Positions 42,690 to 64,000 of a DNA stretch of 64,000 nt are shown here, piece by piece. The stretch is from Luteimonas marina (GTDB lineage: Bacteria; Pseudomonadota; Gammaproteobacteria; Xanthomonadales; Xanthomonadaceae). The first letter of the stretch is position 1. The number at the start of each line of letters is the position of its first letter. The notes beneath the pieces were generated by a model. That model did no database searches and had not been told where the DNA came from. It saw only the letters and a program-made list of their open reading frames with translations. The translations under genes and the position numbers were made by a program. The stretch covers positions 186,001-250,000 of the forward strand of contig NZ_VOHK01000001.1 of the NCBI RefSeq assembly GCF_007859325.1, in the 5' to 3' direction.

Positions 42690-44093
42690 TCAGACCAGCC
42701 CGGTCGCGTAGAACACGCCGATGATCACGAACACCGCCGCGGTCTTGATCAGGGTGATCGCGAAGACGTCCTTGTAGGACTGGCGGTGGGTCAGGCCGGT
42801 GACCGCGAGCAGGGTGATGACCGCGCCGTTGTGGGGCAGGGTGTCCATGCCGCCCGAGGCCATCGAGGCGACGCGGTGCAGCACGTCCATCGGGATGCCC
42901 GCGGCTTCCGCGTTGGCGATGAAGGTGTCGGCCATCGCCGCCAGCGCGATGCTCATGCCGCCGGAGGCCGAGCCGGTGATGCCGGCCAGCGCGGTGACGG
43001 TCACCGCCTCGTTGACCAGCGGGTTCGGGATCGCGCCCAGCGCGTTGGCGACGATCAGGAAGCCCGGCAGCGCCGCGATCACCGCGCCGAAGCCGTACTC
43101 GGACGCGGTGTTCATCGAGGCGAGCAGGGCGCCGCCGATGGCGCTCTTCGTGCCTTCGGCGAAGCTCGCGAACACCGGCTTCCAGGCGAACACGAGGATC
43201 GTGGCGATGCCGACCAGCAGCGCACCCTGGACCGCCCAGATCGCGGCGATCTTCGGCACCTCCTGCACCACCGGCGCGGCGTTGCCGACCACCGCCGGCA
43301 CGAACTCGTGGGTCGCGCCGTAGGCCTTCGGGATCCAGCGCGTGAACAGCAGGTTGCTCACGCCGACCAGCACCAGCGGCAGCAGCGACACCAGCGGGTT
43401 CGCCAGCCGGTCGCCGGCGAAGGGCGCGGGTTCGTTGAGCAGGGTCGCCGGGTCGCCGTAGCCTTCGCCGGCGCGCTGCGCGACGCGCCGGCGCCATTCG
43501 AGGTAGCTCATGCCGACGACCAGGATGAACACGCCGCCGATCGTGCCCAGCACCGGCGCGGCCCAGGCATTGGTGCCGAAGAACGCGGTCGGGATGATGT
43601 TCTGGATCTGCGGCGTGCCGGGCAGGGCGTCCATGGTGAAGGTGAAGGCGCCCAGCGCGATCGTGCCGGGGATCAGGCGCTTGGGGATGTTGCCCTGGCG
43701 GAACAGCTCGGCCGCGAACGGATACACCGCGAACACCACCACGAACAGCGACACGCCGCCGTAGGTCAGCAGTGCGCAGACCAGCACGATCGCCAGCATC
43801 GCCCGCTGCGCGCCGACCACGCGGATGGTGGCGGCGACGATCGACTTGGAGAAGCCGGAGATCTCGATCAGCTTGCCGAACACCGCGCCCAGCAGGAACA
43901 CCGGGAAGTACAGCTTCAGGAAGCCGACCATCTTGTCCATGAACAGGCCGGTGAACATCGGCGCCACCAGCGAGGCATCGGTCAGCAGCACCGCGCCCAG
44001 GGCCGCGATCGGTGCGAACAGGATCACGCTGTAGCCGCGGTAGGCGACGAACATCAGGAAGCACAGCGCCGCCAGGACGATCAGGAAATCCAT
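42690..44093 (-). CDS. GntP-family permease, possible 3-hydroxybutyrate transporter
   Basis: A 467-residue inner-membrane carrier with about 12-14 helices and the GntP/CitM-type repeats (YGGVSLFVVVFAVYPFAAEL, GSASGGMSIALAAM, LPHNGAVITLLAVTGLTHR). GntP proteins import gluconate and other small hydroxy-acids; many members in PHB-forming bacteria are annotated as D-3-hydroxybutyrate permeases. That assignment here is inferred from the neighbouring dehydrogenase, oligomer hydrolase and PHA synthase genes and from a motif shared between promoters. Gluconate or another organic acid remains possible. Confidence 0.8.
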   Translation of the reverse strand: MDFLIVLAALCFLMFVAYRGYSVILFAPIAALGAVLLTDASLVAPMFTGLFMDKMVGFLKLYFPVFLLGAVFGKLIEISGFSKSIVAATIRVVGAQRAMLAIVLVCALLTYGGVSLFVVVFAVYPFAAELFRQGNIPKRLIPGTIALGAFTFTMDALPGTPQIQNIIPTAFFGTNAWAAPVLGTIGGVFILVVGMSYLEWRRRVAQRAGEGYGDPATLLNEPAPFAGDRLANPLVSLLPLVLVGVSNLLFTRWIPKAYGATHEFVPAVVGNAAPVVQEVPKIAAIWAVQGALLVGIATILVFAWKPVFASFAEGTKSAIGGALLASMNTASEYGFGAVIAALPGFLIVANALGAIPNPLVNEAVTVTALAGITGSASGGMSIALAAMADTFIANAEAAGIPMDVLHRVASMASGGMDTLPHNGAVITLLAVTGLTHRQSYKDVFAITLIKTAAVFVIIGVFYATGLV

Positions 44094-44264
44094 TCACGAG
44101 CCCTTCGGCGCGTCGGCGCCCGAAACCGGCGGACAGTGTCCGGACGGCGGCGGCGGCGGCCCATTGTCCGAAGGTACGATGCCACCCGGTTTGACGACTC
44201 CTTAACCTCCCTCGCCATGTGGCCAGCCGGCCACGCGCCATGCATCCCGTGGGAGGGGCCGTCG
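44094..44264. promoter_or_regulatory. Divergent control region, permease / TonB receptor
   Basis: The 171-base spacer contains an odd-centred palindrome CGGACAGTGTCCG (44130-44142) with another TGTCCG half at 44165-44170. It also holds GTCCGAAGGTACGATG (44166-44181), which matches 13 of 16 bases of a sequence in the bdhA/hydrolase spacer (59586-59601). Both are candidate operators; the promoters themselves are not clear. No intergenic repeat is present. Confidence 0.5.
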
Positions 44265-46490
44265 ATGAAGCACCGCAACCTGAAATACAGCAGCCTGAGC
44301 CTGGCCATCGCCCTGGGCATGGCCGCGCCCGCCGCGTTCGCGCAGGACGCGTCCGAGCCGGCGCCGGCGAATCCGTCCAGCACGACCAGCCTCGACACGA
44401 TCACGGTCACCGCGCGCAAGCGCGAGGAGACGCTGCAGGAGGTGCCGGTGGCGGTGACGGCGTTCACCCCCGAAACGCTGGAGAAGCTCAACGTCCAGGA
44501 CCTCGGCGACCTCGGCGCCCAGGTGCCGAACCTGACGGTGTACGCGGCGCGCGGTTCCAGCAGCACGGTGACCGCCTACATCCGCGGCATCGGCCAGGCC
44601 GATCCGCTGTGGGGTGTGGACCCGGGCGTGGGCATCTACCTCGACGACGTCTACATCGCCCGCCCGCAGGGCGCGCTGCTCGACGTGTTCGACGTCGAGC
44701 GGATCGAAGTGCTGCGCGGCCCGCAGGGCACGCTGTACGGCAAGAACACCATCGGCGGCGCGATCAAGTACATCTCGCGCGGCCTGCCGAAGCAGACCGA
44801 CGGCTTCGCCTCGGTCACGGTCGGCAACCACAGCCAGCTTGACGTGAAGGCCGCGATCGGCGGGCCGATCGGCGGCAGCGAGGCGCTGCGCGCCCGGGTG
44901 TCGGTGGCCAGCCTCAACCGCGACGGCTACGGCGAGAACCTGCACAGCGGCCAGCAGGTCAGCGACAAGGAGATCCTGGCCGCGCGCGCCCAGCTCGGCG
45001 CCTACGTCAACGACGACCTCGACATCCAGTTCGCGATCGACTGGATGGACGACCAGTCCGGCGTGCGCGGCGGCAAGATGCTCGCCCCCAACCCGCTGGA
45101 CTACGTCATCGACCCGGGCCGCGGCTTCGGCCAGCAGCCGCTGGACAACCGCTACGACATCCGCAGCGGCATGCCCAACGTCAACGACACCTCGATGCTC
45201 GGCATGTCCGCGACCGTCAACTGGCGCGTGAACGAGGACTGGGCGCTGAAGTACGTGGTCGCCAAGCGCGAGTCCGACACCGAGACCAACATCGACTTCG
45301 ACATGCTGCCCAACCGCATCGTCGACGTGCTCGCGTTCTACAGCGACGAACAGGTCAGCAACGAGTTCCAGGTCAACTACGACGCCGGCGGGCGCGTGCG
45401 CGGCGTGGTCGGCCTCTACGCCTTCGACGGCGAGGCCGGCGGGCAGGTGCTGAACAACTTCCTGAATGCCTCGTTCGGCGACACCCGCGGCACGGTCTAC
45501 ACCGAAAGCCTGTCGCTCTACACCGACTGGACGATCGACCTGACCGACAGGTTCAAGCTCGATCTCGGCGCGCGCTACACCGACGAGGACAAGCACGCGG
45601 TCGTGCTGAACCGCGCGTATTCGAGCGCGGACTTCGACACGGTGATCGCCGTCCCGGCGGATTTCGACAAGACCGTCAACTTCAGCAACGTCTCGCCGAA
45701 GATCTCGCTGGGCTACCAGGTGAACGACGACGTGCTGGTCTACGGCCTGGCCTCGCGCGGCTTCAAGTCGGGCGGCTACAACATCCGCGCCAACAGCGCG
45801 GTGCCGCACACGCTGCTGCCGTTCGACGACGAGTCGGTCGACAGCTTCGAGATCGGCGCCAAGCTGGGCCTGCTGGACCAGCGCCTGTTCCTGAACCTCG
45901 CCGCGTTCCACAACAAGTACGACGACATCCAGCTGTCGGTGTTCACCGGATACGATTCGAACGGCGATGGCGTCGACGATGCCTTCCTCGGCGACTTCAC
46001 CAACGCCGGCAAGGGCACGGTGAACGGCGTCGAGGTGGAATACCAGTGGCTGCCGACCGAACACTGGCTGATCAGCGGCAACCTCGCGTGGCTCGACGCC
46101 AAGTACGACGAGTTCATCAGCGCGGGCACGAACGTCGCCGACAGCCAGGTGTTCACCAACGCGCCGGAATTCTCGGGCGCGGTGAACGTCGAATGGCGCA
46201 CCGACCTGGCCAACGGCGGCAACCTCTCGGCCCGCGTCAGCTACGCCTACCAGAGCGAGGTCTACCCGACCACCGACCTGTCCGAGGACATCAAGCAGGA
46301 CGGCTACGGGCTGGTCAACGCCGGCGTGATCTGGCGCATGAACGACGCCTGGTCGTTCTCGCTGCAGGGCACCAACCTGGCCGACAAGGAATACCGCACC
46401 ACCGGCTACAACATCGCCGCGCTGGGCATCCTGACCGGCTTCTACGGCCCGCCTCGCCAGTACAGCCTCACCGCCCGCTACGATTTCTGA
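44265..46490 (+). CDS. TonB-dependent outer-membrane receptor
   Basis: A 741-residue receptor. A signal peptide (cleavage near AAFAQ, residue 27) is followed by a TonB-box-like DTITVTARKR (about 44-53), the plug domain (about 60-180, with RGIGQADPLWGVDPGVGIYL and VERIEVLRGPQGTLYGKN), and a 22-strand-type barrel ending in the terminal aromatic YDF. The ATG has GGGAGGGG upstream; the very long upstream open frame crosses the antisense permease gene and is rejected. Divergence from the GntP permease suggests the two import one substrate, proposed to be 3-hydroxybutyrate or its oligomers; this is inference. Confidence 0.9.
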   Translation: MKHRNLKYSSLSLAIALGMAAPAAFAQDASEPAPANPSSTTSLDTITVTARKREETLQEVPVAVTAFTPETLEKLNVQDLGDLGAQVPNLTVYAARGSSSTVTAYIRGIGQADPLWGVDPGVGIYLDDVYIARPQGALLDVFDVERIEVLRGPQGTLYGKNTIGGAIKYISRGLPKQTDGFASVTVGNHSQLDVKAAIGGPIGGSEALRARVSVASLNRDGYGENLHSGQQVSDKEILAARAQLGAYVNDDLDIQFAIDWMDDQSGVRGGKMLAPNPLDYVIDPGRGFGQQPLDNRYDIRSGMPNVNDTSMLGMSATVNWRVNEDWALKYVVAKRESDTETNIDFDMLPNRIVDVLAFYSDEQVSNEFQVNYDAGGRVRGVVGLYAFDGEAGGQVLNNFLNASFGDTRGTVYTESLSLYTDWTIDLTDRFKLDLGARYTDEDKHAVVLNRAYSSADFDTVIAVPADFDKTVNFSNVSPKISLGYQVNDDVLVYGLASRGFKSGGYNIRANSAVPHTLLPFDDESVDSFEIGAKLGLLDQRLFLNLAAFHNKYDDIQLSVFTGYDSNGDGVDDAFLGDFTNAGKGTVNGVEVEYQWLPTEHWLISGNLAWLDAKYDEFISAGTNVADSQVFTNAPEFSGAVNVEWRTDLANGGNLSARVSYAYQSEVYPTTDLSEDIKQDGYGLVNAGVIWRMNDAWSFSLQGTNLADKEYRTTGYNIAALGILTGFYGPPRQYSLTARYDF

Positions 46491-46817: not shown

Positions 46818-49800
46818 ATGCTGAGCATCGGCGCCGTCGTCGCGGCGGCCGCGCTGTGGCTGGCGCTGCTGTTCGCCACCGCGGTCTACGCCGAGCGCCA
46901 CTCCGGCGTGCTGGCGCGCCACTGGCGCCACGTCTACGCGCTGTCGCTGGCGGTGCACTGCACCTCGTGGACCTTCTACGGCACGGTCACCCAGGCCGCG
47001 CGCTACGGCTGGCCGCTGCCGCCGACCTTCGTCGGCGCGATCGCGTTCTACGCCCTGGCGGTGTTCTTCATGATCCGGCTGGTGCGGCTGGCGCGCGAGA
47101 GCAACGCGACCTCGCTGGCGGACCTGATCGCCACGCGGTTGGGCAAGGATCCGTGGCTGGCGGCGACGGTGACCCTGGTCGCCGCGCTCGGGCTGATCCC
47201 GTACATCGCGCTGCAGCTGCAGGCGATCACCCAGAGCTTCGCCACGCTGACCGCCGGCGCCGTGCACGCGGGCGACGCGCCGCCGCCGCCGTGGCGCGAC
47301 GGCGCGTTCTACGTGGCGCTGGCGATGGCGCTGTTCGCGATGCTGTTCGGCACCCGCCGCGCCAGCGCCACCGAGCACAACCCGGGGCTGGTGCTGGCGA
47401 TCGCGTTCGAGTCGCTGTTCAAGCTGGTGGCGATGCTGGCGCTGGGCGCGTTCGTCTGGTTCGGGCTGAAGGGACTGCCGACGATCGATGCGCCACCGCC
47501 CGTGGCGACCTCCGCCGGCGGCTTCATGCCGCTGGTGCTGCTGGGCGCGCTGGCGATGTTCATCATGCCGCACCAGTTCCATGTCGGCGTGGTCGAGTGC
47601 CGCGACGACCGCGACGTCCGCACCGCGCGCTGGCTGTTCCCGCTGTACCTGCTGCTGATCGCGATCCCCGGGCTGCCGCTGGCGCGCGCGGGCGCGGCGC
47701 TGCTCGGCGATCGCGTGCCCTCGGACATGTATGCGCTGGCGCTGCCGCTGGCCGCCGGCAACGACGGCATCGCGCTGCTGGTGTTCCTCGGCGGCCTCAG
47801 TGCGGCCACCGGCATGGTCATCGTCAGCACGCTGACGCTGAGCCTGATGATCGGCAACCACTGGTTCGCGCCGGGCCTGCTGCGTGGCGCGTGGTCGCGC
47901 GGGCAGGCCGACGACCATCGCGGCGCGCTGCTGGCGCTGCGCCGCGGCGGCATCGTCGCGATCATGCTGCTGGGCTGGGCCTACAGCCGGCTGGTCGGCG
48001 GCAACGAGGCGCTGGCCGACGTCGGCGCGGTGTCGTTCTCGGCGCTGGCGACGCTGGCGCCGGCGCTGGCGTTCGCGGTGTGGCGGCCGCAGACGCCGGC
48101 GCGCGCGGCGGTGCTGGGCGTGCTGGCGGGCTTCGGCGCCTGGGCCTGGGTGACGCTGCCGCCGATGCTCGAACCCGGGCAGGCGTGGCTGCAGTCAGGG
48201 CCGTGGGGCCAGTCGTGGCTGGCGCCGGAATCCCTGTTCGGCCTGACCGGCTGGAGCCGGCTCGGTCGCGCCGTCGGCGTGAGCCTGTTCGTCGGCACCG
48301 CGGTCACCCTGCTGGCGGCGGGGCTGCGCAGCACGCCGCATCGCAGCGAGGCGCGGGGTTCGGACCTGCGTACGCTGCGCAACGCCGGCCGCCGCTTCCT
48401 GCCGGCGCAGCGCGTCGACGAACTGCTGCGCGGCGCGCCCGCGAACGGGCCGGTTCCGGCGGCCACCGAACTGGGCCTGGAGCGCGAACTGGCCGCGGTG
48501 CTGGGCAGCGCCTCGGCGCGCCTGCTGCTCGACGCCGCGCGCCGCGACGCCGGGCCGGACCTCGACACCGTCGCCGCGATCGTCGGCGAGGCCTCGCAGG
48601 ACCTGCGCTTCAACCAGCGCCTGCTGGAGGCCGCGCTCGAGAACATGAGCCAGGGCATCAGCGTGGTCGACAGCGAACTGCGCCTGGTCGCCTGGAACCG
48701 GCGCTACGCCGAACTGTTCGATTATCCGCCGGAGCTGCTGCGCGTCGGCCTGCCGGTGGAGCGGCTGCTGCGGCACAACCTGCGCGGCGGGCTGGTCGGC
48801 CCGGTCGACATCGATCGCGAAGCGGACCGACGGCTGCGGCACATGCGCGCAGGCACGCCCTACGTGACCGAGCGCCGGTTCCCGGACGGCACCGTGGTCG
48901 AAATCCGCGGCAATCCGATGCCCAGCGGCGGCTTCGTCGCCACCTTCACCGACGTCACCGCGTTCCGCGACACCGAGGCCGAACTCAAGCGCAGCAACGA
49001 AACCCTGGAGCATCGCGTCGCCGAGCGCACCGACAGCCTCGACCAGGCGCGGCGCGAGGCCGAGCGCGCGAACGACGCCAAGAGCCGCTTCCTCGCCGCG
49101 GTCGGCCACGACCTGCTGCAGCCGCTGCACGCCGCGCAGCTGTTCACCGACTCGCTGGCCAGGCAGCTCGACGACGCGCGCCGGCCGGCGCTGCAGCAGG
49201 TGCGCGGCGCGCTGGATTCGACCACCGACCTGCTGACCGGCCTGTTCGACATGTCGCGGCTGGAGGCGGGCGGGCTGGTGCCGCAGCCACGCGATTTCCC
49301 GCTGGCCGAGGTGCTCGATCCGCTGGCTTCGGAGTTCCGCGCGCTGGCCACGGAACAGGGGCTGGCGTTCCGCCACGTGCCGACCATGGCCTGGGCGCAC
49401 GGCGACCCGCAGTTGCTGCGGCGCGTGCTGCAGAACTTCCTCGCCAATGCGGTGCGCTATACCCGGACCGGCGGCGTGCTGCTGGGCGTGCGCCGCGACG
49501 GCGACGGCCTGCGCATCGAGGTGCACGACACCGGCCCCGGCATCGATCCCTCGCAGCAGGCGCTGATCTTCGAGGAGTTCCGGCGCGGCGACGGCGTGCC
49601 GGGGCAGGGCCTTGGCCTGGGGCTGGCGATCGCGGATCGCATCGCGCGGCTGATGTCGGCGCCGCTCGGCTTGCGCAGCCGGCCGGGCTGCGGAACCGTG
49701 TTCTCGCTGCGGCTGCCGCGCGCGGCAGTGCAGGCGCGACCGGTCGCCGGCGGCGGCAAGCCCGTGCTCGCGGGCACGCGCCTGCTGCTGGTCGACAACG

Positions 49801-50138
49801 ATCCCGGCGCGCTCGCGGCCCTGCGCGTGCTGCTGGAAGGCTGGGGCTGCGAGGTCGAAGCGGCGGCCGACGGCGCCGGCGCCGAAGCGATCCTGCGGCG
49901 CGCGCCGGCCGCGCTGTGGCTGTTCGACTACCACCTCGACGACGGCGACACCGGCGTCGCGCTGCACGCGCGGCTGTCGGCGGCGTTCGGCGAGCGCCCG
50001 ACCCTGATCCTCAGCGCCGACGACAGCGGCGACGTGCGCCGAGCCGCGCTCGAACACGACCTGTCCCTGCTGCAGAAGCCGGTGCGCCCGCTGGCGCTGA
50101 AGTCGGTGCTGGACCGGATGCTGGCGAGCCGGCTCTAG
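46818..50138 (+). CDS. Hybrid sensor histidine kinase with SLC5-like membrane domain
   Basis: An 1106-residue protein. Residues about 1-500 form a 12-13 helix sodium:solute-symporter-like domain. A PAS domain (about 600-720, ENMSQGISVVDSELRLVAWN) precedes a short coiled coil. HisKA has phospho-acceptor His764 (AAVGHDLLQPLH), HATPase spans about 865-965 (NFLANAVRY, DTGPGID, GLGLGLAIADR), and a C-terminal receiver (about 988-1098) has Asp1037 in LFDYHLDDG. This is the architecture of CrbS of Vibrio and MxtR of Pseudomonas, which with a LuxR-type partner control acetate use. The likely partner lies at 57904-58569. The signal is unknown. Confidence 0.88.
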   Translation: MLSIGAVVAAAALWLALLFATAVYAERHSGVLARHWRHVYALSLAVHCTSWTFYGTVTQAARYGWPLPPTFVGAIAFYALAVFFMIRLVRLARESNATSLADLIATRLGKDPWLAATVTLVAALGLIPYIALQLQAITQSFATLTAGAVHAGDAPPPPWRDGAFYVALAMALFAMLFGTRRASATEHNPGLVLAIAFESLFKLVAMLALGAFVWFGLKGLPTIDAPPPVATSAGGFMPLVLLGALAMFIMPHQFHVGVVECRDDRDVRTARWLFPLYLLLIAIPGLPLARAGAALLGDRVPSDMYALALPLAAGNDGIALLVFLGGLSAATGMVIVSTLTLSLMIGNHWFAPGLLRGAWSRGQADDHRGALLALRRGGIVAIMLLGWAYSRLVGGNEALADVGAVSFSALATLAPALAFAVWRPQTPARAAVLGVLAGFGAWAWVTLPPMLEPGQAWLQSGPWGQSWLAPESLFGLTGWSRLGRAVGVSLFVGTAVTLLAAGLRSTPHRSEARGSDLRTLRNAGRRFLPAQRVDELLRGAPANGPVPAATELGLERELAAVLGSASARLLLDAARRDAGPDLDTVAAIVGEASQDLRFNQRLLEAALENMSQGISVVDSELRLVAWNRRYAELFDYPPELLRVGLPVERLLRHNLRGGLVGPVDIDREADRRLRHMRAGTPYVTERRFPDGTVVEIRGNPMPSGGFVATFTDVTAFRDTEAELKRSNETLEHRVAERTDSLDQARREAERANDAKSRFLAAVGHDLLQPLHAAQLFTDSLARQLDDARRPALQQVRGALDSTTDLLTGLFDMSRLEAGGLVPQPRDFPLAEVLDPLASEFRALATEQGLAFRHVPTMAWAHGDPQLLRRVLQNFLANAVRYTRTGGVLLGVRRDGDGLRIEVHDTGPGIDPSQQALIFEEFRRGDGVPGQGLGLGLAIADRIARLMSAPLGLRSRPGCGTVFSLRLPRAAVQARPVAGGGKPVLAGTRLLLVDNDPGALAALRVLLEGWGCEVEAAADGAGAEAILRRAPAALWLFDYHLDDGDTGVALHARLSAAFGERPTLILSADDSGDVRRAALEHDLSLLQKPVRPLALKSVLDRMLASRL

Positions 50139-50263: not shown

Positions 50264-50346
50264 GCCGGGGGCGGCGGAATGCACACGGCCCCGCGAGCGG
50301 CGACCCCCTCGCCTAGAATGTGCGTTTCCCGCACCTGCACTGCCCG

Positions 50347-50835
50347 ATGCCCTACACCCCCATCGTCGCCACCCTCGGCTACGTGCTGTCGCCGGACCGC
50401 CGCCGGGTCCTGATGATCCACCGCAACGCGCGCCCCGGCGACCATCACCTAGGCAAGTACAACGGCCTCGGCGGCAAGCTCGAGCCGGACGAGGACGTGG
50501 TCGCCGGCATGCGCCGCGAGATCCTCGAGGAAGCCGGCATCACCTGCGGGGCGATGGCGCTGCGCGGCACCATCAGCTGGCCCGGCTTCGGCAAGCACGG
50601 CGAGGACTGGCTGGGCTTCGTGTTCGTGGTCACCGGCTACGACGGCACGCCGTTCGCCTCGAACCCGGAAGGCACGCTGGAGTGGGTCGACGTCGACCGC
50701 ATCCTCGACCTGCCGCTGTGGGACGGCGACCGCCACTTCCTGCCGCTGGTGTTCGACGACGACCCGCGCGCCTTCCACGGCGTGATGCCGTATCGCGACG
50801 GCAGGATGGTGTCCTGGAGCGTGTCCAGGATCTGA
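50347..50835 (+). CDS. Nudix hydrolase, MutT/8-oxo-dGTP diphosphatase-like
   Basis: A 162-residue Nudix enzyme. The Nudix box is complete: it begins GKLEPDEDVV and ends RREILEEAGI (about residues 42-64) with all metal-binding Glu residues in the GX5EX7REUXEEXGU pattern. Members near this sequence hydrolyse oxidised purine nucleoside triphosphates (8-oxo-dGTP, 2-hydroxy-dATP). The ATG at 50347 is preferred; an in-frame ATG at 50320 would add nine residues and lies too near the candidate -10. Confidence 0.88.
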   Translation: MPYTPIVATLGYVLSPDRRRVLMIHRNARPGDHHLGKYNGLGGKLEPDEDVVAGMRREILEEAGITCGAMALRGTISWPGFGKHGEDWLGFVFVVTGYDGTPFASNPEGTLEWVDVDRILDLPLWDGDRHFLPLVFDDDPRAFHGVMPYRDGRMVSWSVSRI

Positions 50836-51966: not shown

Positions 51967-51986
51967 GTCGTTCTCCGGGAGCGGGT

Positions 51987-56062: not shown

Positions 56063-56066
56063 GGCG

Positions 56067-57182
56067 TCAGTCCCCGGCGCCCTGCGAGGTCTCGAACGGC
56101 AGCCGCAGCGTGACCTCGATGCCGGGCTCGCGGTTGCGGACCGAGAACGAACCGGCATCGCCGTACAGCACGGCGAGCCGCTCGCGCGTGTTGCGCAGGC
56201 CCACGCCCTTGCCGGGGGGCAGGCGGTCGCCCTCGAGGCAGCTGCAGCCTGGGCCGTCGTCGGCGACCGTCAGCACCAGCTGCGCGTCCTCGCGGCGCGC
56301 CTGGATCCTCAGCAGGCCGCCGGCCACCTGTTTGGCGACCGCATACTTGATCGCGTTCTCGACCAGCGGCTGCAGCAGCAGGCTGGGCAGCAGCGCGCGC
56401 CAGCAGTCCTCGTCGATGCCGGTTTCGACCCGCAGGCGTTCGGCGAAGCGGATCTTCTCGATGTCCAGGTACAGCGTCAGCGCGTCCAGTTCCTGGCGCA
56501 GGGTGACGCGCTGCATCGGGTCGTTGTCCAGGGAGTGCCGCAGGAACGCCGACAGTCCCTGGACCATGCGGTTGGCGGTGCCGTTGTCGCGATCGAGGAT
56601 CAGCGTGGAGATCGCGTTGAGCGTGTTGAACAGGAAGTGCGGGTTGAGCTGGTAGCGCAGCATTTTCAGCTGCGCCTGGTGGGCGATGCTGCGTGCGGCC
56701 AGCGTGCGTTCGGTTTCGTTTTGCAGCTGCCGGTAGTACTTGATGCCGAAGTACAGGCCGACCCAGGCCAGCAGCACGTAGATGTAGCCGAGGGAATAGG
56801 CGACGAACGCCATGCGGTTGGTCGGCTTGCAGGTGTCGCAGAACTCCACCAGCGCCTCGCGCGTGAGGAAATCCATCAGCGCCGAGCTCGCGAGGATCGG
56901 CAGCACCATCAACAGCAGCAGCCGCTTCGGCGGCAGGCCCCAGCACAGGCGCAGCAGGAAACGCAGCCCCAGGGTGAACAGCGCGCCGGTGGTCGCGGCC
57001 GTCAGCGGCACCACCCAGTAGCCGGACGGCTTGCCATGGGCGATGGCCGACAGGTAGCCCTGCCCGAAGTAGGCCGTCCAGCCGCCGATGTGCAGCAGCC
57101 AGAACAGATGCTGGCGCGGCATCTCCAGCGGGCGGGACAGGGCGATGGACATCGACGTGGCATCCGGGTGCAACCGGGACAT
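56067..57182 (-). CDS. LytS/AlgZ-type sensor histidine kinase
   Basis: A 371-residue membrane kinase. Four to five helices occupy residues about 25-150. The His_kinase domain has the phospho-acceptor His182 in MLRYQLNPHFLFNTLNAIS, the form unique to LytS-like kinases, followed by LLQPLVENAIKYA and an HATPase G box in GVGLRNTRERL. The start is uncertain: ATG at 57182 or, ten codons later, at 57152; neither has a clear ribosome site. It forms an operon with the LytTR regulator. Confidence 0.88.
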   Translation of the reverse strand: MSRLHPDATSMSIALSRPLEMPRQHLFWLLHIGGWTAYFGQGYLSAIAHGKPSGYWVVPLTAATTGALFTLGLRFLLRLCWGLPPKRLLLLMVLPILASSALMDFLTREALVEFCDTCKPTNRMAFVAYSLGYIYVLLAWVGLYFGIKYYRQLQNETERTLAARSIAHQAQLKMLRYQLNPHFLFNTLNAISTLILDRDNGTANRMVQGLSAFLRHSLDNDPMQRVTLRQELDALTLYLDIEKIRFAERLRVETGIDEDCWRALLPSLLLQPLVENAIKYAVAKQVAGGLLRIQARREDAQLVLTVADDGPGCSCLEGDRLPPGKGVGLRNTRERLAVLYGDAGSFSVRNREPGIEVTLRLPFETSQGAGD

Positions 57183-57291
57183 GCTACTGCCGAAGGGCGC
57201 GCCATGGACTCGCTTCGCCGCGGATCCGGCACGGTTCGCCGTGCGCGGCGGGGCGATGGCGGGAGCGTCGCTGCCGGCTCCCCGGCGCCGC

Positions 57292-57693
57292 TCAGTCCCG
57301 CAGGAAGGACATCCGTGGCGAGTAGTCCGCCGGCGACAGCACACGCTCGTCGATGTCACCGACGAAGCGGCCGTGCTCGCGCGCGGTGACGCGCTTGATC
57401 TCCGCCCACTCCTCGTCGGCCATGAACTTCTCCCAGCCCTCGCGCATCGCCGGTTCGTCCGGCCATTCCAGCAGGTAGACGAACTGCGGCCGGCCATCGT
57501 CGCCGTGGCTGTCCCGGATCGCGACGATCTCGAAGCCGTATTTCGGCATGATCCGCGCAGCGTGGTCGCGGAAGCGGTCGTGGAAGGCCTCGCGGGTGTC
57601 GTCGAAGACCTCGTAGACCCGCAGTTGGTGGATCGGGCGCGAGGCATCGTCCGCGCTCGCGGGTCCGGGGCAGCAGCGCCCGGAGGAGGGCAC
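57292..57693 (-). CDS. NIPSNAP-domain protein, body frame (apparent frameshift upstream)
   Basis: A 133-residue open frame with a NIPSNAP-type dimeric alpha/beta-barrel fold: IHQLRVYEVFDDTREAFHDRF, KYGFEIVAI, FVYLLEWPDE and a C-terminal SPRMSFLRD. Its first 15 residues look unnatural. Immediately upstream, in another frame, is a good signal peptide (57666-57736). Deleting one C from a CCCC run (57667-57670 on the plus strand as GGGG) would join them as ALLPGPASA followed by DDASRP, an ideal signal-peptidase site. The gene is thus either frameshifted, or the assembly has a one-base error. Function of NIPSNAP proteins in bacteria is unclear. Confidence 0.7.
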   Translation of the reverse strand: MPSSGRCCPGPASADDASRPIHQLRVYEVFDDTREAFHDRFRDHAARIMPKYGFEIVAIRDSHGDDGRPQFVYLLEWPDEPAMREGWEKFMADEEWAEIKRVTAREHGRFVGDIDERVLSPADYSPRMSFLRD

Positions 57694-57736
57694 AGATCGC
57701 CAGCCAGCGGTGGGCGAAGGGCGGGGAAGTCGACAT
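57666..57736 (-). other. Out-of-frame signal-peptide coding segment of the NIPSNAP gene
   Basis: From the ATG at 57736 (GGAG six bases upstream) the frame reads MSTSPPFAHRWLAICALLRA then LLP, a clear hydrophobic signal sequence, before passing into the wrong frame at the CCCC run. It belongs with the NIPSNAP body at 57292-57693. The 161 bases upstream (57743-57903) contain no other gene that I recognise. Confidence 0.65.
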
Positions 57737-57903
57737 CGGCATCTCCGGTCTCACCTGGTACCGGTGAAGTGGGAGTCCCGTCGCGCGAAAGGGTTCCCGG
57801 AGAAACCTGACGGAGTCCGCGGATCGGCGACTCCATCGGCGAAATCCGCTCCGACGGACGCCCCGGGACGCGGTGCGTGCGCTGCAGGCGGACCCGGACC
57901 GGA

Positions 57904-58569
57904 TCAATCCGCCGCCTGCCGGCTCGGATCCCCGATCTCGAGTTCGCGCAGGATCACGCTGGCCTGGGTGCGGTTGCGGGCGCCGAGCTTCTCGAAGATC
58001 ACCGACAGGTGCGCCTTGACCGTGCGCTCCTGGATGTCGAGGCGGTCGGCGATCTGCTTGTTGAGCAGGCCTTCGGCGACCAGGGTCAGGACGCGGAACT
58101 GCTGCGGGGTGAGGCTGGCCAGGCGCGCGGCAAGGTCGGCGTCGGCGGGGGAGGATTGCGCGCGGGTGACCGCGCCGCGCAGCGCGGGCGGCAGCCACTG
58201 TTCGCAGGCGAGCACGGTGCGGATCGCCTCGCGCATGTCGTCCAGGCCGGCGCTCTTGGGGATGTAGCCGGCGGCGCCGTGGTCGAGCGCGCGGCGCACG
58301 GTGTGCGGATCCTCGTTGGCCGAGACCAGCACGACGGCGACGGCCGGATGCTGGGCGCGGATCGCGGCGAGGCCGGCGAGGCCGTGGTTGCCGGGCATGT
58401 GCAGGTCGAGCAGGACCAGGTCGATGTCGTTGCGCGATTCCAGCAGCGCCAGCACGCCGTCGAGCGATTCGGCCTCGCAGGTGGCCACGTCCGCGGCCGC
58501 CTCGGCGGCGGCCCCGCGCAGCGCGGCGCGGAACAGCGGGTGGTCGTCGGCGATCAGCAGGGTGGGCAT
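57904..58569 (-). CDS. LuxR/FixJ-family response regulator, CrbR/ErdR-like
   Basis: A 221-residue regulator. The receiver domain (1-125) begins TLLIADDHPLFRAAL, with Asp55 in LVLLDLHMPG and Lys in AAGYIPKSAG. The C-terminal LuxR helix-turn-helix (about 150-212) has LTPQQFRVLTLVAEGLLNKQ and RTVKAHLSVIFEKL. CrbR/ErdR-type regulators that pair with SLC5-domain hybrid kinases have this form, so the kinase at 46818-50138 is a likely partner, although the two genes are 8 kb apart. It lies downstream of the dehydrogenase gene in the same direction. The ATG at 58569 gives the conserved N-terminus. Confidence 0.88.
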   Translation of the reverse strand: MPTLLIADDHPLFRAALRGAAAEAAADVATCEAESLDGVLALLESRNDIDLVLLDLHMPGNHGLAGLAAIRAQHPAVAVVLVSANEDPHTVRRALDHGAAGYIPKSAGLDDMREAIRTVLACEQWLPPALRGAVTRAQSSPADADLAARLASLTPQQFRVLTLVAEGLLNKQIADRLDIQERTVKAHLSVIFEKLGARNRTQASVILRELEIGDPSRQAAD

Positions 58570-58705: not shown

Positions 58706-59524
58706 TCATTGCGCCGTCCAGCCACCGTCGATCGGCATCGCCGTGCCGGTCACGTTGTGCGCCTCGCGCCGGCACAGCCAGGCGGCCATCGCGCCGATGT
58801 CCTCGGGCAGCGACATGCGCAGGCTGGGCTGCTTTTCCGACAGCAGCGCGCGCACGCCGTCGTCGCGGCTGCCGCCGTTGCGGCGCGCCTCGATCTGCGG
58901 CTCGATCAGCGGTGTCTCCACCCAGCCCGGGCAGATGCAGTTGACGGTGACGCCGCCGCTGTCGCGGCTGCCGGCCGCGGCGTATTCCAGCGCGGCGACC
59001 CTGGACAGGCCGACGATGCCGAACTTGCTGGCGACGTAGGGCGCCTTGTCCTTCGATGCGACGAGGCCGTGCACCGAGGCGATGTTCACCACGCGCCCGT
59101 AGCCGCGCGCAGCCATGCCCGGCATCGCCAGCCGCATGGTGTGGAAGGTGGCGCTGAGGTTGATGGCGAGGATGTCGTTCCACTTCGCGACCGGCATCTC
59201 GGCCAGCGGCACCGCGTGCTGGATGCCGGCGTTGTTGACCAGCACGTCGACGCCGCCGCCGGACGCCTGCGACCACGCCGCGACGTCGGCCAGCATCGCC
59301 TCGATCTGCGCCGGATCGCGCAGGTCGGCGTCGAAGTGGCGGGCGTCGGGCGCGCCGGCGTCGCGGGCCGAGGCGACGGCATCGTCGATCTGCCCCGGCG
59401 TGCCGAGGCCGTTGACGGCCACGCGCGCGCCGTGCGCGGCCAGCGTGCGGGCGATGGCCAGGCCGATGCCGGAGGTGCTGCCGGTCACCAGCGCGGTGCG
59501 GCCTTCGAGGAAGCGGTCGTTCAT
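58706..59524 (-). CDS. bdhA: 3-hydroxybutyrate dehydrogenase
   Basis: A 272-residue SDR that oxidises D-3-hydroxybutyrate to acetoacetate. The cofactor motif is TGSTSGIG; family-specific segments are NNAGIQHAVPLAEMPVAKWN, NIASVHGLVASKDKAPYVASK with the catalytic Ser and YxxxK, and GWVETPLIEPQIEAR. It is slightly longer than the usual 255-260 residues, with an extra AAAGSRDSGG stretch before VTVNCICPG. It is divergent from the oligomer hydrolase, which would supply its substrate. Confidence 0.92.
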   Translation of the reverse strand: MNDRFLEGRTALVTGSTSGIGLAIARTLAAHGARVAVNGLGTPGQIDDAVASARDAGAPDARHFDADLRDPAQIEAMLADVAAWSQASGGGVDVLVNNAGIQHAVPLAEMPVAKWNDILAINLSATFHTMRLAMPGMAARGYGRVVNIASVHGLVASKDKAPYVASKFGIVGLSRVAALEYAAAGSRDSGGVTVNCICPGWVETPLIEPQIEARRNGGSRDDGVRALLSEKQPSLRMSLPEDIGAMAAWLCRREAHNVTGTAMPIDGGWTAQ

Positions 59525-59633
59525 GCGTGAGGCGGGGAAGCCGAGGTCGCCGGAAACGGTAGCAGGCGCGTTTCCCGCGCGCGTGGTACCAAAGTACGAT
59601 GAAGCCCGCGGTCGTGGCTGCTACCGTGCCGGC
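59525..59633. promoter_or_regulatory. Divergent control region, bdhA / oligomer hydrolase
   Basis: The 109-base spacer contains GTACCAAAGTACGATG (59586-59601), 13 of 16 identical to GTCCGAAGGTACGATG in the permease/receptor spacer. Its centre is about 40 bases before the hydrolase ATG, a usual place for an activator site close to a promoter. Core promoter elements are not obvious. Confidence 0.5.
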
Positions 59634-61466
59634 ATGACCACCTCATCGATGATCGGAACATTGTGCGCGGCCGCGCTTGCGGCTGGACTCGTGGCCTGCG
59701 CGACCGGGCCGCGCACCCAATCGGCGGAGGCGACCGTGTTCACGGCACAGCGCAGCAGCGAGCACCGCGGCCAGGACGACCTGCTGACCGGCGGCCTCGG
59801 CCTCGACGGCCTGCGCGCGATGGCGCCGCCGGCGTTCGCCGATCCGGCGCAGCCGACCGCGGCGGAACTGCGTCGCCGCGCGCTCTGGAGCAACTGGCGC
59901 GGCATCGCCGACCTGGCCCCGGGCGGCGGCTACGGCGAACTGTTCGGCAGCCTCGCCGCGGTCCCCGGCCGCGAGTTCCATGCCTACGCGAAAGTGCCCG
60001 GCGCGGCCTCTCCGCACCGCGTGATGCTGCAACTGCCGGACGCATTCGATGCAAGCAAACGCTGCGTGGTGGTCACCGCATCCTCGGGCTCGCGCGGCAT
60101 CTACGGCTCGATCGCCGTGGCCGGCGCCTGGGGCCTGCCGAAGGGCTGCGCCGTGGCCTATACCGACAAGGGCGCCGGCACCGACTACTTCGATCTCGAA
60201 GCCCAGTCCGGCGTGCGCGCCGACGGCACGCGCGGCGCGCTCGACGCCGGCGACCTGGCCTTCATCCCCGATGCGCCGGTCAACGCGTCTGGCGTTGCCT
60301 TCAAGCACGCGCATTCGAAGGACAATCCCGAGGCCGACTGGGGCCGCCACGTGAAGCAGGCGGCCGAGTTCGCGCTGCAGGCGCTGGGCGAAGCCCTGCC
60401 GGATGCGGCGCCGTTCACTTTCGCCAATACCCGCGTGATCGCGGTCGGCATTTCCAACGGCGGCGGCGCGGTGCTGCGCGCGGCCGAACTCGACGGCGAC
60501 TGGCTGGACGCGGTGGTGGCGGGCGAGCCGAACGTGTTCGTCGACGGCCATGGCGGTCGCTCGCTGTACGACTACACCACCGAGGCGGCGCTGCTGATGC
60601 CCTGCGCGCAGCTGCACCTGCAGGACCTGCCGCAGCCGCCGTTGCGGGCGCAGGTCGAGGCGCTGTGGACGCTGCGCTGCGGCTCGCTGCAGGCGGCTGG
60701 ACTGGTCGAGGGCGGCGATCCCGCGGCGCAGGCGAAGTCGGCCTTTGACCGCATGCTGGCCAACGGCTGGAGCGAGGGTGCGATTCGCGCCGGCGTGCTC
60801 TCCACCGGCTTCGACCTGTGGCGTGCGGTCGCGGTCACCTATGCCTCGGCCTATGGCCGCTATGGCGTGGACGAGCATCCCTGCGAGTTCGCGTTCTCCG
60901 CGCAGAACGCGGATTTCCAGGCGCGCGCGGCGACGCCGGCGGAGCAGGCGGCATGGTGGAGCGATGCCAGCGGCATCCCGCCGGGCGCGGGCGTGGGCAT
61001 GCTCGGCACGCCGGTGGCCTTGCCCGACGCCACGCTGCCGGGCCTGCAGTGCCTGCGCGCGCTCAACGACGGCGACGGCGAGGACGCGAAGCGCGTGCAG
61101 GCCGGCATCGCCGCCACCCGCGCCGCGCCGCCGCGCGCGGGCCTGCCGGTGGTGGTGGTGCACGGCACCGACGACGGCCTGGTGCCGATGGCCTTCAGCA
61201 GCGCGCCCTACGTGGCCGCGGCCCGCGCGGCCGGACGTGACGTGCGCTATTGGCAGGTGCGCAACGCGCAGCATTTCGACGGCTTCCTCGGCCTGCCGGA
61301 CTACGCCGCGCGCTACGTGCCGCTGCTGCCGTATGTGTACGAGGCGCTGGATCGTGTGTCGGCGCACCTGGATGGCGCCGGCGCGCTGCCGGCCGACGCC
61401 GTCATCGCGACCACGCCGCGCGGGCCAGGCGCGGCGCTGACGCGGGCGCATCTCGCGATTCCCTGA
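59634..61466 (+). CDS. D-3-hydroxybutyrate oligomer hydrolase, lipoprotein
   Basis: A 610-residue protein of the 3-hydroxybutyrate-oligomer hydrolase family, which splits PHB-derived oligomers to monomer. The N-terminus has a lipoprotein signal with lipobox LVAC (Cys23), so it is probably attached in the envelope. Family motifs include ALWSNWRGIADLAPGGGYG, AVAYTDKGAGTDYFDLE and FKHAHSKDNPEADWG. The lipase box is GISNGGG with nucleophile Ser274; VVVHGTDDGLVPMAFSS and a late His in NAQHFDGF probably complete the triad. The ATG at 59634 begins the signal sequence. Confidence 0.9.
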   Translation: MTTSSMIGTLCAAALAAGLVACATGPRTQSAEATVFTAQRSSEHRGQDDLLTGGLGLDGLRAMAPPAFADPAQPTAAELRRRALWSNWRGIADLAPGGGYGELFGSLAAVPGREFHAYAKVPGAASPHRVMLQLPDAFDASKRCVVVTASSGSRGIYGSIAVAGAWGLPKGCAVAYTDKGAGTDYFDLEAQSGVRADGTRGALDAGDLAFIPDAPVNASGVAFKHAHSKDNPEADWGRHVKQAAEFALQALGEALPDAAPFTFANTRVIAVGISNGGGAVLRAAELDGDWLDAVVAGEPNVFVDGHGGRSLYDYTTEAALLMPCAQLHLQDLPQPPLRAQVEALWTLRCGSLQAAGLVEGGDPAAQAKSAFDRMLANGWSEGAIRAGVLSTGFDLWRAVAVTYASAYGRYGVDEHPCEFAFSAQNADFQARAATPAEQAAWWSDASGIPPGAGVGMLGTPVALPDATLPGLQCLRALNDGDGEDAKRVQAGIAATRAAPPRAGLPVVVVHGTDDGLVPMAFSSAPYVAAARAAGRDVRYWQVRNAQHFDGFLGLPDYAARYVPLLPYVYEALDRVSAHLDGAGALPADAVIATTPRGPGAALTRAHLAIP

Positions 61467-61497
61467 CGTCGCTGGCGTAAGGGCGACGACGATCTGC

Positions 61498-61630: not shown

Positions 61631-61687
61631 TTTTGCAGGAGCAGGGCAGGATTTGGCACTCTGGGGGCCGGTTTCCGCGAGATCGCC

Positions 61688-62308
61688 ATGTCCAGACCCC
61701 GCCACTTCTCGATGCTGCGCGATTTCCAGCTGGCCGACTGGTTCACGCTGGCCAACGCCTTCTGCGGCACCGGCGCGGTGTTCGCGGCGATGCGCTTCCT
61801 GCAGGACGGCGTCGTCCGCGACCTGCTGGTGGGCATGGCCCTGATCCCGCTGGCCTTCGTGTTCGATGCACTCGACGGGCGCATCGCGCGCTGGCGCAAG
61901 GTCGCCTCGACCCTCGGCCGCGAGCTCGATTCGCTGGCCGACGTGATCTCGTTCGGCCTCGCCCCGGCCGCGCTCGGCTACGCCTGCGGCCTGCAGGGCG
62001 GCTGGGACTGGGTCGTGTTGAGCTATTTCGTCGGCTGCGGGGTCAGCCGGCTGGCGCGCTACAACGTCACCGCCGAGACCCTGGCCGACGGCGGCGACAA
62101 GGTGAAGTATTTCGAAGGCACACCGATCCCGACCAGTCTGCTGATCGTGGTGCTGCTGGCCGTGGCCGCGTGGCAGGGTGCCATCGGCGACGCGATCTGG
62201 TTCGGCCAGTGGCAGCTCGGCCCCTGGCAGTTGCATCCGCTGGTGCTGGTGTACGCGCTGTCGGGTTCGCTGATGATCAGCAAGACCGTCCGCATTCCGA
62301 AACTCTGA
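61688..62308 (+). CDS. pssA: CDP-diacylglycerol-serine O-phosphatidyltransferase
   Basis: A 206-residue membrane enzyme of the CDP-alcohol phosphatidyltransferase family, type II PssA, making phosphatidylserine on the way to phosphatidylethanolamine. The active-site motif DG-x2-AR-x8-G-x3-D-x3-D is intact in DALDGRIARW through LDSLAD (about residues 60-82). About six helices are visible. The N-terminal FQLADWFTLANAFCGTGAVF is typical. Serine as the alcohol is inferred from the family; its place between PHB genes may be incidental. Confidence 0.88.
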   Translation: MSRPRHFSMLRDFQLADWFTLANAFCGTGAVFAAMRFLQDGVVRDLLVGMALIPLAFVFDALDGRIARWRKVASTLGRELDSLADVISFGLAPAALGYACGLQGGWDWVVLSYFVGCGVSRLARYNVTAETLADGGDKVKYFEGTPIPTSLLIVVLLAVAAWQGAIGDAIWFGQWQLGPWQLHPLVLVYALSGSLMISKTVRIPKL

Positions 62309-62454
62309 AGCCGCCGGGCCGCGCGGGCGGCGGCACGGGGCGGGATTCGCGGCGTCCACCCGGCCACGGGCCGGATTGGACATCCTGTCGCATCGATCCG
62401 CCACTGGATCGACGCCTGCGGTTGCTATGATCGTGGCGCAACGCGGAGACAGGC

Positions 62455-63603
62455 ATGGCAAACGGATCGATGGCGGATTTCGAGCGGCTCGCCCGGCAGT
62501 ACTGGGGCGCCTGGGGCGATGCGATGCGCGGCGCGGCGCCGGGCGGCGGGCAGCCGGGCATGCATGCCTGGCAGGACGCCATCGACTGGTGGACGCGCTA
62601 TGCGCACGGCGGCCGCGAGGGCGTGAACGAGGCGCTGGGCCGGTTCAACGTGCAGGCGCGCGACTGGTACGGGCACATGCAGCAGGTGGCCGCGCAGTTC
62701 GCGGGGCGCGACAACAGCGCCCGTGACGTCGCCGCCGCCTGGAAGCAGGCGCTGGGCGCGGCCGGCATGAACCCGTTCCCGGAAATGTTCCGCTCGATGC
62801 GCGGCCACGGCCTGCAGGGGCTCGACCAGTGGGTCGAGGACGCGTCGCCCTGGCTCGACGCGATGCGCGGCGAGGGCATGTCCTGGCTGAAGCTGCCGGC
62901 CTTCGGCGTCGGCCGCGAGCACCAGGAGCGGCTGCAGGCGCTGGCGCAGGCGCAGGTGGAGTACCAGGAGTGCAACAACGCCTACGGCGCGCTGATGCTG
63001 AAGGCCTCGCAGTCGGCGTTCGAGATCTTCGAGGACAAGCTGGTCGAACGCGAGGAACCGGGCCGGCAGATCGAATCGCCGCGCGCGCTGTTCGACCTGT
63101 GGATCGACGCGGCGGAGGAGGCGTACGCGGAGATCGCGCTGTCGAAGGAATTCCGCGAAGTCTACGGCAAGCTGGTCGACGCGCAGATGCGGCTGCGCGC
63201 CGGCGTGCAGCGCGAGGTGGAGCAGGCGAGCGCGCTGCTGGGCATGCCCACGCGCACCGAGGTCGACGCCGCGCACCGCAAGATCGTGGAACTCGAGCGC
63301 GCCCTGCGCCGCATGCGCGATGCCGCCGAGGCCGCGCCGCCGCGAGCGTCGGCGGGCAAGCCGCCCGAGGCCCCGGCGCCCAAGCGCGCCGAAGCCGCCC
63401 GCAAGCCGGCGGCCGCCGCGAAGCCCAAGCCCGCGCCATCGAAGAAACCGGCAGCGGCGAAGCGCGCAGCACGCAAGGTCGCGGCACGGCCGAGCGTTGC
63501 CAGCCGTCGCGCCCCCACCAACGGTTTCTCGAGCGCGATCCCGATGCCGGTCGCACCCCTGCCGCCGGACGATGCGGCGCGGTCGAAGAAGGAAGGACGC
63601 TGA
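62455..63603 (+). CDS. phaE: Class III PHA synthase subunit PhaE, with basic C-terminal tail
   Basis: A 382-residue PhaE, the non-catalytic partner of class III PhaC in making polyhydroxyalkanoate. Typical features are the N-terminal RLARQYWGAWGDAMRG, helical central domain with WLKLPAFGVGREHQERLQAL and SPRALFDLWIDAAEEAYAE, and the LLGMPTRTEVDAAHRKIVELERAL coiled coil. Residues about 295-360 are Lys/Arg/Ala/Pro-rich (for example AAKPKPAPSKKPAAAKRAAR), like the nucleoid-binding tails of PhaF/PhaM. The stop lies one base before the phaC start. Confidence 0.9.
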   Translation: MANGSMADFERLARQYWGAWGDAMRGAAPGGGQPGMHAWQDAIDWWTRYAHGGREGVNEALGRFNVQARDWYGHMQQVAAQFAGRDNSARDVAAAWKQALGAAGMNPFPEMFRSMRGHGLQGLDQWVEDASPWLDAMRGEGMSWLKLPAFGVGREHQERLQALAQAQVEYQECNNAYGALMLKASQSAFEIFEDKLVEREEPGRQIESPRALFDLWIDAAEEAYAEIALSKEFREVYGKLVDAQMRLRAGVQREVEQASALLGMPTRTEVDAAHRKIVELERALRRMRDAAEAAPPRASAGKPPEAPAPKRAEAARKPAAAAKPKPAPSKKPAAAKRAARKVAARPSVASRRAPTNGFSSAIPMPVAPLPPDDAARSKKEGR

Positions 63604-63604
63604 C

Positions 63605-64000
63605 ATGACCGGACCGCTGAACATCTCCATCGAACGCACGGCCGAGGAGGCGATGCGCTTCCAGCAGAAGCTGGGCGCGGGCCTGCAGACGCTGCGCGAG
63701 GTCGGCGACTACGACTACGGCGCGACCGCGAAGGAGGAAGTCTGGCGCGACGGCAAGGTGGCGCTGTACCGCTTCCGCGGCGAGCGCACACCGACCGCGA
63801 AGGTGCCGCTGCTGATCAGCTACGCGCTGGTCAACCGACCGTACATGGTCGACCTGCAGGCGGACCGCTCAATCGTGAAGGGGCTGCTGGAGCGCGGCGA
63901 GGACGTCTACATCATCGACTGGGGCTACCCGGACCGCTCCGACCGCTTCCTGACGCTGGAGGACTACATCGAGCGCTTCCTCGGCGGCGCGGTGGACCAC
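63605..64000 (+). CDS. phaC: Class III PHA synthase subunit PhaC, N-terminal fragment
   Basis: The first 132 codons; the gene runs off the right edge, before the active-site Cys. The translation begins TGPLNISIERTAEEAM and has the class III hallmarks VWRDGKVALYRF, KVPLLISYALVNRPYMVDLQ and EDVYIIDWGYPDRSD. PhaC polymerises 3-hydroxyacyl-CoA on granules in complex with PhaE, whose gene is directly upstream. Confidence 0.92.
   Translation, partial: MTGPLNISIERTAEEAMRFQQKLGAGLQTLREVGDYDYGATAKEEVWRDGKVALYRFRGERTPTAKVPLLISYALVNRPYMVDLQADRSIVKGLLERGEDVYIIDWGYPDRSDRFLTLEDYIERFLGGAVDH

Follow-up and report, generated by a model that had tools for sequence, protein, structure and literature searches.

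By what route do the breakdown products of poly(3-hydroxybutyrate) (PHB) pass the Gram-negative envelope? The matter seems hardly to have been addressed, and it is raised by a locus in a 64,000-nucleotide stretch of the Luteimonas marina genome (G000:C1:186001-250000, called the window here; about 70% G+C, in a genome of 3.9 Mb). The locus consists of two halves that lie 12 kb apart. In the first, the gene of a GntP-type permease is divergent from that of a TonB-dependent receptor (TBDR); in the second, the gene of a predicted lipoprotein hydrolase of 3-hydroxybutyrate (3HB) oligomers (3HBOH) is divergent from that of the 3HB dehydrogenase BdhA and is followed by genes for PssA, PhaE and PhaC. 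The original prediction, made from the letters of the window, had recognized the permease, receptor, hydrolase, bdhA and phaE/phaC, all of which are there in the arrangement given, and had joined them into a route from uptake to storage. The identities of the genes, their co-location in several arrangements, a shared promoter site, a widespread lipobox in the hydrolase and a link to depolymerases in relatives, all computed here, make it likely that the locus encodes a real, conserved and co-regulated system for the uptake and oxidation of PHB-derived oligomers, with the ligand of the receptor as its inferred part. The co-location, the site and the extracellular PHA depolymerases of relatives speak strongly for uptake and oxidation; the storage part of the prediction is not supported. 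The features concerned, with genes called on the basis of strand, frame and third-position G+C, are these (compared loci and genomes carry L and G numbers below):

42690 to 44093, minus strand: GntP-type permease, predicted inner-membrane importer of 3HB; its orthologues lie directly before bdhA in Pseudomonas and others
44166 to 44180, minus strand: promoter site ATCGTACCTTCGGAC in the GntP/TBDR intergenic region, from comparison of intergenic regions
44265 to 46490, plus strand: TBDR, sub-type A of a receptor clade linked to polyhydroxyalkanoate (PHA), from domains, tree and model
46818 to 50138, plus strand: hybrid histidine kinase, CrbS/NahK-like (below curated cut-offs), whose long N-terminal part has no Pfam match
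57904 to 58569, minus strand: ErdR/CrbR-like LuxR-family response regulator, candidate binder of the promoter site (start estimated)
58706 to 59524, minus strand: BdhA, over the cut-off of one of three curated profiles
59586 to 59600, minus strand: promoter site ATCGTACTTTGGTAC in the BdhA/3HBOH intergenic region, from comparison of intergenic regions
59634 to 61466, plus strand: lipoprotein 3HBOH, from PF10605

Co-occurrence in related genomes was the check that the prediction itself had proposed. A class-wide sample proved too thin (permease at E 1e-20 in 9 of 229 genomes), so 200 genomes from the window's order were sampled instead, in which all permease-based counts are lower bounds. The receptor (E 1e-85) is carried by 118 of these genomes, the permease (E 1e-30) by at least 124, 3HBOH by 109 and BdhA (E 1e-57) by 42. 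Receptor and permease are both present in at least 95 genomes, within 500 bp of each other in at least 74 and on different contigs only in 17 more; among the matches listed, 73 of 75 pairs this close are divergent, and they come from 8 families. Receptor and 3HBOH share 89 genomes; they are no more than 12 kb apart in 50 of these and no more than 500 bp apart in 11. The 12 pairs within 500 bp are confined to a ninth family, and in each of them 3HBOH follows the receptor on the same strand. BdhA occurs with 3HBOH in 27 genomes (within 500 bp in 12) and with the receptor in 36 (within 12 kb in 14). A control was made with 41 closer relatives: the permease, 3HBOH or BdhA is found no more than 12 kb away from 32 of 34 clade receptors and from 0 of 116 other TBDRs among the matches listed. 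The clade set took one receptor from each of 34 genomes and left out 7 genomes without a strong match; for G017 the copy adjacent to GntP was taken as the clade receptor, and its better-scoring copy was counted among the 116. The co-location of this gene set is not due to chance, and receptor, permease, hydrolase and bdhA are indeed brought together in several arrangements. One genome carries permease, receptor and 3HBOH twice, in copies that face each other, with one BdhA among the matches listed (G205:C8:412730-468970).

The arrangements differ from one lineage to another. In L155 and L156 the genes run TBDR-3HBOH-BdhA-GntP in a row on one strand (3HBOH and BdhA of L155 overlap by 4 bases, and L154 shows the first three), in L048 the row is TBDR-GntP-3HBOH-BdhA, and L050 and L051 have TBDR-MFS transporter-BdhA. 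In other genomes of the genus, 3HBOH lies elsewhere (e.g., G005, G009, G018, G020, G022 and G024). That the same gene set is kept in different orders argues against plain inherited synteny. A TetR_C_30 regulator gene adjoins the receptor in L048, L051, L055 and L155, where no ErdR-like match was seen, and is perhaps a second solution to regulation.

The two halves of the locus are also joined by a promoter site. A genome-wide search of 21 genomes for a 15-bp pattern, ATCGTACNTTNGKAC, gave 17 exact matches, spread over 9 genomes and every one at a GntP/TBDR or BdhA/3HBOH promoter, and the reversed pattern, used as a control, has 0 matches in the 21. There are exactly two sites per genome in 8 cases (G000 and seven relatives) and one in the draft genome G006, at 3HBOH; the G006 permease promoter (L031) is without it. 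When one mismatch is allowed, scattered single sites are added in numbers like those of the reversed control. The pair of sites is kept 979 kb apart in G009 and on different contigs in G005, which argues for a regulon and not only a neighbourhood. With a weight matrix taken from the other promoter set, 38 of 48 promoter sequences score above all 30 of their own block shuffles. A looser palindromic core, present in 120 of 3949 random 300-bp pieces, is found in 49 of the 53 permease promoters that remain once L211 and L212, repeats of the L030 and L042 genomes, are set aside; it misses L031 and the three compact operons with a TetR gene, L048, L155 and L156. Among 3HBOH promoters, the core occurs in 38 of the 40 with a neighbouring ErdR-like gene (L078 and L084 are the misses) and in 0 of the 11 without one (L048, L154-L156, L197-L200 and L214-L216; L197-L200 come from G001, G002, G021 and G361, genomes without a permease among the matches listed). 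On account of this difference the ErdR-like regulator would be the natural binder of the site. Neither regulator reaches its curated cut-off (RR_TF_ErdR 221.1 vs 390; near_NosP_CTERM of the hybrid kinase 354.2 vs 400), and both are therefore called "like" only.

A link to the polymer itself comes from relatives of the window's locus. Receptor loci of at least 9 kb (73 in number, with the window itself, short loci and repeats left out) were compared with 57 receptor-free loci, mostly from other orders; no locus had been chosen for a depolymerase. A type-2 short-chain-length PHA depolymerase is encoded in 26 of the 73 and in 1 of the 57. In 13 loci its gene stands directly behind that of the receptor, on one strand and with a gap of 4-225 bp; these include Dyella, Arenimonas, Luteibacter, a Rhodanobacter metagenome-assembled genome, two further metagenome-assembled genomes and two more genomes. 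The four depolymerases scanned against NF050059 (cut-off 280) all pass, at 324.9 (L072), 306.8 (L064), 311.5 (L084) and 340.7 bits (L036), and the L084 protein matches the solved PHB depolymerase PDB 2d80 (E 3.7e-46). Two receptors that had seemed unattached, in L053 and L055, have a depolymerase 3.7-3.9 kb away. The receptor is connected with PHA more securely by this link than by the window's own enzymes. A test with PF10503 at E 1e-15 had found a depolymerase in 12 of 41 genomes, G000 not among them, and had suggested a scavenger that needs none; that view was wrong, as the type-2 depolymerases were missed because their PF10503 matches are weak (2.2e-13 at best).

The TBDR of the window (ATG at 44265) has a plug (PF07715, 72.6 bits) and a barrel domain (PF00593, 151 bits) and, by eye, a signal peptide and the TonB-box-like DTITVTA. 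Its model (mean pLDDT 73.4) matches TBDR structures, with FyuA as the best (TMt 0.83); the models of TBDR and 3HBOH left the ligand undecided. In L066 (7619-9846; Thermomonas sp. S9) the receptor match is split in two, with the nearer piece 155 bp from the permease, which would reflect a broken gene or a sequencing error. The window BdhA passes NCBIfam PRK12429 (272.5 bits vs cut-off 258) and falls short of TIGR01963 (270.5 vs 307) and PRK13394 (227.9 vs 340); the dehydrogenases of L048, L051 and L155 pass TIGR01963.

The permease was compared over 80 named loci, 22 from the window's order and 58 from elsewhere. Within the order a receptor lies within 600 bp in 19 of the 22, and the remaining loci are L059, without a receptor, L070, which is cut at the permease, and L066 with its two pieces. 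Outside the order (Pseudomonas, Citrobacter, Cupriavidus, Azospirillum and others) BdhA lies within 250 bp in 33 of 58 loci, and a receptor or 3HBOH match in 0 of 58, over flanks of up to 10 kb; three BdhA proteins checked from these loci each pass at least 2 curated models. In most Pseudomonas loci the permease gene, whose product is 72-75% identical to that of the window, lies about 20 bp before BdhA. The window permease is therefore best read as a 3HB importer that was joined by the receptor in this order. By itself it has no Pfam or NCBIfam match at E 0.01, and homologues of about 39-50% identity, from L048 and L155, match PF02447 over the cut-off, a discrepancy that points to a gap in the family models.

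3HBOH (ATG at 59634) scores 462.3 bits against PF10605 (cut-off 27), and from this family membership it is predicted to hydrolyse 3HB oligomers. S274 (in SNGG), D514 and H547 are invariant in alignments A4 and A5 and would form the catalytic triad. The protein has the lipobox LVAC. An alignment of 8 3HBOHs from four families (the window's and three others) has the lipobox Cys in every one, followed by Ala or Ser, not Asp, which under the familiar sorting rules would send the lipoprotein to the outer membrane. In all, 27 of 32 3HBOHs have a lipobox (21 by script; L023, L048, L057 and L074 by eye; L154 and L155 by alignment). The model of 3HBOH (mean pLDDT 79.5) is an alpha/beta hydrolase.

From these parts a working order of events can be proposed, in which we infer the direction of flow. 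Depolymerases, which some relatives encode directly behind the receptor, would free (R)-3-hydroxybutyrate oligomers from PHB. The oligomers, as the probable ligand, would bind the TBDR, and TonB would drive their passage across the outer membrane. The lipoprotein 3HBOH, presumably working on the inner side of that membrane, would cleave them in the envelope. The resulting monomer would be imported by the GntP-type permease and oxidized to acetoacetate by BdhA. The hybrid kinase and the ErdR-like regulator are the likely switch, acting through the site upstream of both halves.

The receptors that occupy this position are of more than one kind. A quick tree with long branches splits 56 locus receptors from 17 other TBDRs (SH-aLRT 89), and the locus receptors fall into two deep types. 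L060, which is the L031 contig, was left out of this tree, the promoter counts and the depolymerase tally. Receptor type changes 9 times on the permease tree (9-11 in bootstraps and not settled, with 3 changes forced by strong branches) and 7 times on the kinase tree, 6 of them forced. The two types have therefore replaced each other in one slot while the promoter site was kept. Different oligomer lengths or escape from phage are possible causes of the swapping.

Several observations weigh against an uptake system for PHB oligomers. Being small, 3HB dimers and trimers could pass through porins, and the solved TBDRs that come closest in sequence and fold are receptors of siderophores, colicin I, heme, B12 and PQQ. 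A depolymerase was not found in the window's own locus, where the scan covered the locus only. Seven of the 73 receptor loci lack GntP, 3HBOH, BdhA and depolymerase alike (L054, L217-L219, L221, L234 and L236, with L234 a short contig), and 14 more have GntP only. The best receptor match of G017 lies, among the matches listed, away from permease, 3HBOH and BdhA. BdhA, at the threshold used, is found in 42 of the 200 order-sample genomes vs 118 for the receptor, and 3HBOH occurs without receptor or permease, among the matches listed, in G001, G002, G021 and G361. The 3HBOH promoters of L214-L216 lack the site in genomes that do have receptor and permease, and a lipobox was not found by script, eye or alignment in five of the 32 3HBOHs (L033, L067, L068, L084 and L156). 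The genomes are related and their counts are not independent; some named loci may repeat other sampled genomes. Most of the 73 receptor loci were fetched via the permease, so that its presence there is not independent evidence, and that point is carried by the order sample. The prediction would have suffered from a receptor that never accompanies bdhA or the hydrolase, or that belongs to another substrate; the search for such a pattern did not refute it, with the 7 loci among 73 as exceptions. The G017 receptor of L054 (G017:C1:2675726-2677864) scores above the permease-adjacent copy, and the PHA genes searched for are absent from its 20-kb stretch.

Among other explanations, the one that survives best overlaps with the system proposed here: the receptor would serve PHA catabolism, and its main or additional ligand would be medium-chain or mixed hydroxyalkanoate oligomers, cyclic oligomers or some other polyester fragment. 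It is suggested by L217-L219 (G273, G297 and G336), where the neighbours of a 70-71% identical type A receptor are, in place of 3HBOH and GntP, genes for an alpha/beta hydrolase, a protein with a MaoC domain and an acyl-CoA ligase, together with a hybrid kinase and an ErdR-like gene. These loci are perhaps a hydroxyalkanoate version for longer (medium-chain) units, or may instead reflect a wider ligand range of the receptor. The two deep receptor types in one slot point the same way, but many loci hold enzymes of the C4 type (3HBOH, BdhA) or a short-chain-length depolymerase, and such a ligand is possible and on balance unlikely.

A regulon for acetate and ketone bodies (3HB, acetoacetate and acetate) under a CrbS/CrbR-like pair, with a receptor that imports a cofactor or metal complex and not oligomers, draws on the kinase and ErdR-like regulator in the locus. 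In PMC5715377, CrbS/CrbR (also MxtR/ErdR) is an acetate system with an ACTU site at its targets; the window shares with it the kinase plus LuxR-type regulator and the spacing of the site (TAC-N4-GTA/GTC). The two differ in that the window regulators fall below the cut-offs, the site is at 3HB genes, and a pattern derived from the ACTU examples in that paper has, with 1 mismatch allowed, 0 matches in the window. Compact operons elsewhere, moreover, keep receptor, 3HBOH, BdhA and GntP with a TetR-type gene instead, and the depolymerase stands directly behind the receptor in others; an acetate regulon is accordingly improbable. Still less probable is an envelope 3HBOH that recycles the cell's own envelope-bound or leaked 3HB oligomers beside an unrelated receptor: the four genomes with 3HBOH and, among the matches listed, neither receptor nor permease would agree with it, as would PhaEC adjoining 3HBOH here, against receptor-3HBOH operons, the shared site and receptor-depolymerase operons. 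Inherited synteny without any functional link, to which the origin of all compared receptor loci in one order lends something, is scarcely credible when the gene set is kept in different orders, the site is kept with the halves apart (979 kb in G009, different contigs in G005), and 0 of 116 control receptors among the matches listed lie near these genes.

The uptake-and-oxidation system has a familiar outline. Polysaccharide utilisation loci and TonB-dependent carbohydrate loci combine an outer-membrane TonB receptor, a lipoprotein hydrolase, a permease, a catabolic enzyme and a regulator, sometimes with a secreted depolymerase. The window's locus resembles them in its types of component and has polyester enzymes where they have enzymes for carbohydrates; among the window genes scanned, from 39 to 64 kb, neither a SusD-like protein nor a carbohydrate-active enzyme was found. 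We incline, with less assurance than for the system itself, to the broader view that a two-type class of TBDRs imports PHA oligomers and that their loci are for polyesters what polysaccharide utilisation loci are for polysaccharides, with a second flavour (alpha/beta hydrolase, MaoC, acyl-CoA ligase) that may serve longer hydroxyalkanoates. Such loci may comprise depolymerase, receptor, lipoprotein oligomer hydrolase, permease, dehydrogenase and regulators.

Parts of the system have known counterparts. The bdhA-GntP operon of Pseudomonas and others has a permease about 70-75% identical to that of the window and an adjoining BdhA, and differs in having neither receptor nor 3HBOH. An extracellular 3HB-oligomer hydrolase of Pseudomonas sp. 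A1 is said to have been described by Zhang in 1997, and it and Cupriavidus PhaY presumably belong to PF10605. The window 3HBOH would be of the same enzyme class as these two, from which it differs by its lipobox and its linkage to receptor and permease. MHETase, of the PETase/MHETase polyester system of Ideonella, is likewise a lipoprotein ester hydrolase and is ranked first by Foldseek among the fold matches of 3HBOH, weakly, with TM-scores of about 0.33, which is the level of alpha/beta hydrolases in general and indicates no close kinship. PhaY is described as a 3HB-oligomer hydrolase. A section on the import of rubber oligomers in PMC5979037 names TBDRs, a loose parallel. The literature compared, in excerpts, included PMC5436829, PMC7830162, PMC11893044, PMC10882806, PMC12542648, PMC13179865, PMC2864759 and PMC13372988. 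A search of titles and abstract starts, which for some queries covered the best 15 to 20 of a larger number of papers, found no TonB-dependent receptor for 3HB or PHA oligomers; subscription journals are mostly outside its coverage, and prior work may exist. A word search of two reviews on PHA degradation (one from 2026) found neither "TonB" nor "transporter". If the proposal is true, it gives a named receptor family and a new class of ligand for TonB-dependent receptors, a marker by which PHB-eating bacteria could be recognized in soil, in water and in communities on plastic surfaces, and a handle to separate depolymerisers from scavengers; the regulon is compact and, with one predicted binding site, directly testable.

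The remaining genes of the region lie between the two halves or behind 3HBOH:

50320 to 50835, plus strand: NUDIX-domain protein, a conserved neighbour, from its profile
50869 to 51987, minus strand: membrane-fusion protein of an RND efflux pair, in a lineage-specific insertion probably outside the system
51987 to 55070, minus strand: AcrB-family RND pump, in the same insertion
55205 to 57836, minus strand: LytTR-type response regulator and His_kinase-type sensor, in the efflux-pair insertion
61685 to 62308, plus strand: PssA-like CDP-alcohol phosphatidyltransferase, a neighbour only (start estimated)
62455 to 63603, plus strand: PhaE, class III PHA synthase subunit, a neighbour (PF09712)
63605 to 64000, plus strand: PhaC, class III PHA synthase, a neighbour cut by the window end, from its profile

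The prediction had conceded that other genes separate the two halves. They are present here, and the gap is closed in nine relatives without the efflux/LytTR block. In four loci of the same genus (L022, L023, L024 and L026) the order is GntP, TBDR, kinase, NUDIX, ErdR, BdhA, 3HBOH, PssA, PhaE and PhaC, and in five more (L028, L029, L032, L033 and L041) both halves lie within one 20-kb stretch, with no BdhA match. The block is absent from all nine, save a short sensor piece in L032, and receptor and BdhA are 4.7 kb apart in L023 vs 12.2 kb in the window. Beside the window, the whole block was seen only in L037 (G012) and L038 (G010) among the loci compared.

Storage through PhaEC, the last step of the predicted route, is not supported, since the link is one of adjacency. 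PssA with PhaE/PhaC stands behind 3HBOH in loci of the same genus and in some of Lysobacter; no PssA, PhaE or PhaC match is found behind 3HBOH in L035, L044, L048 and L154-L156, and PhaEC storage was on this ground rejected as a part of the system. In many named loci the sequence breaks off too close behind 3HBOH for these genes to show. PhaE itself scores 232.7 bits (PF09712), and the PhaC fragment reaches 164.7 bits against the class III model, below the full cut-off of 365 because the gene is cut by the window end. On the far side of the locus, genes with DUF1501 and DUF1800 adjoin the permease (window 39089-42482), and one or both are also present in L022, L025, L026, L031, L037 and L070.

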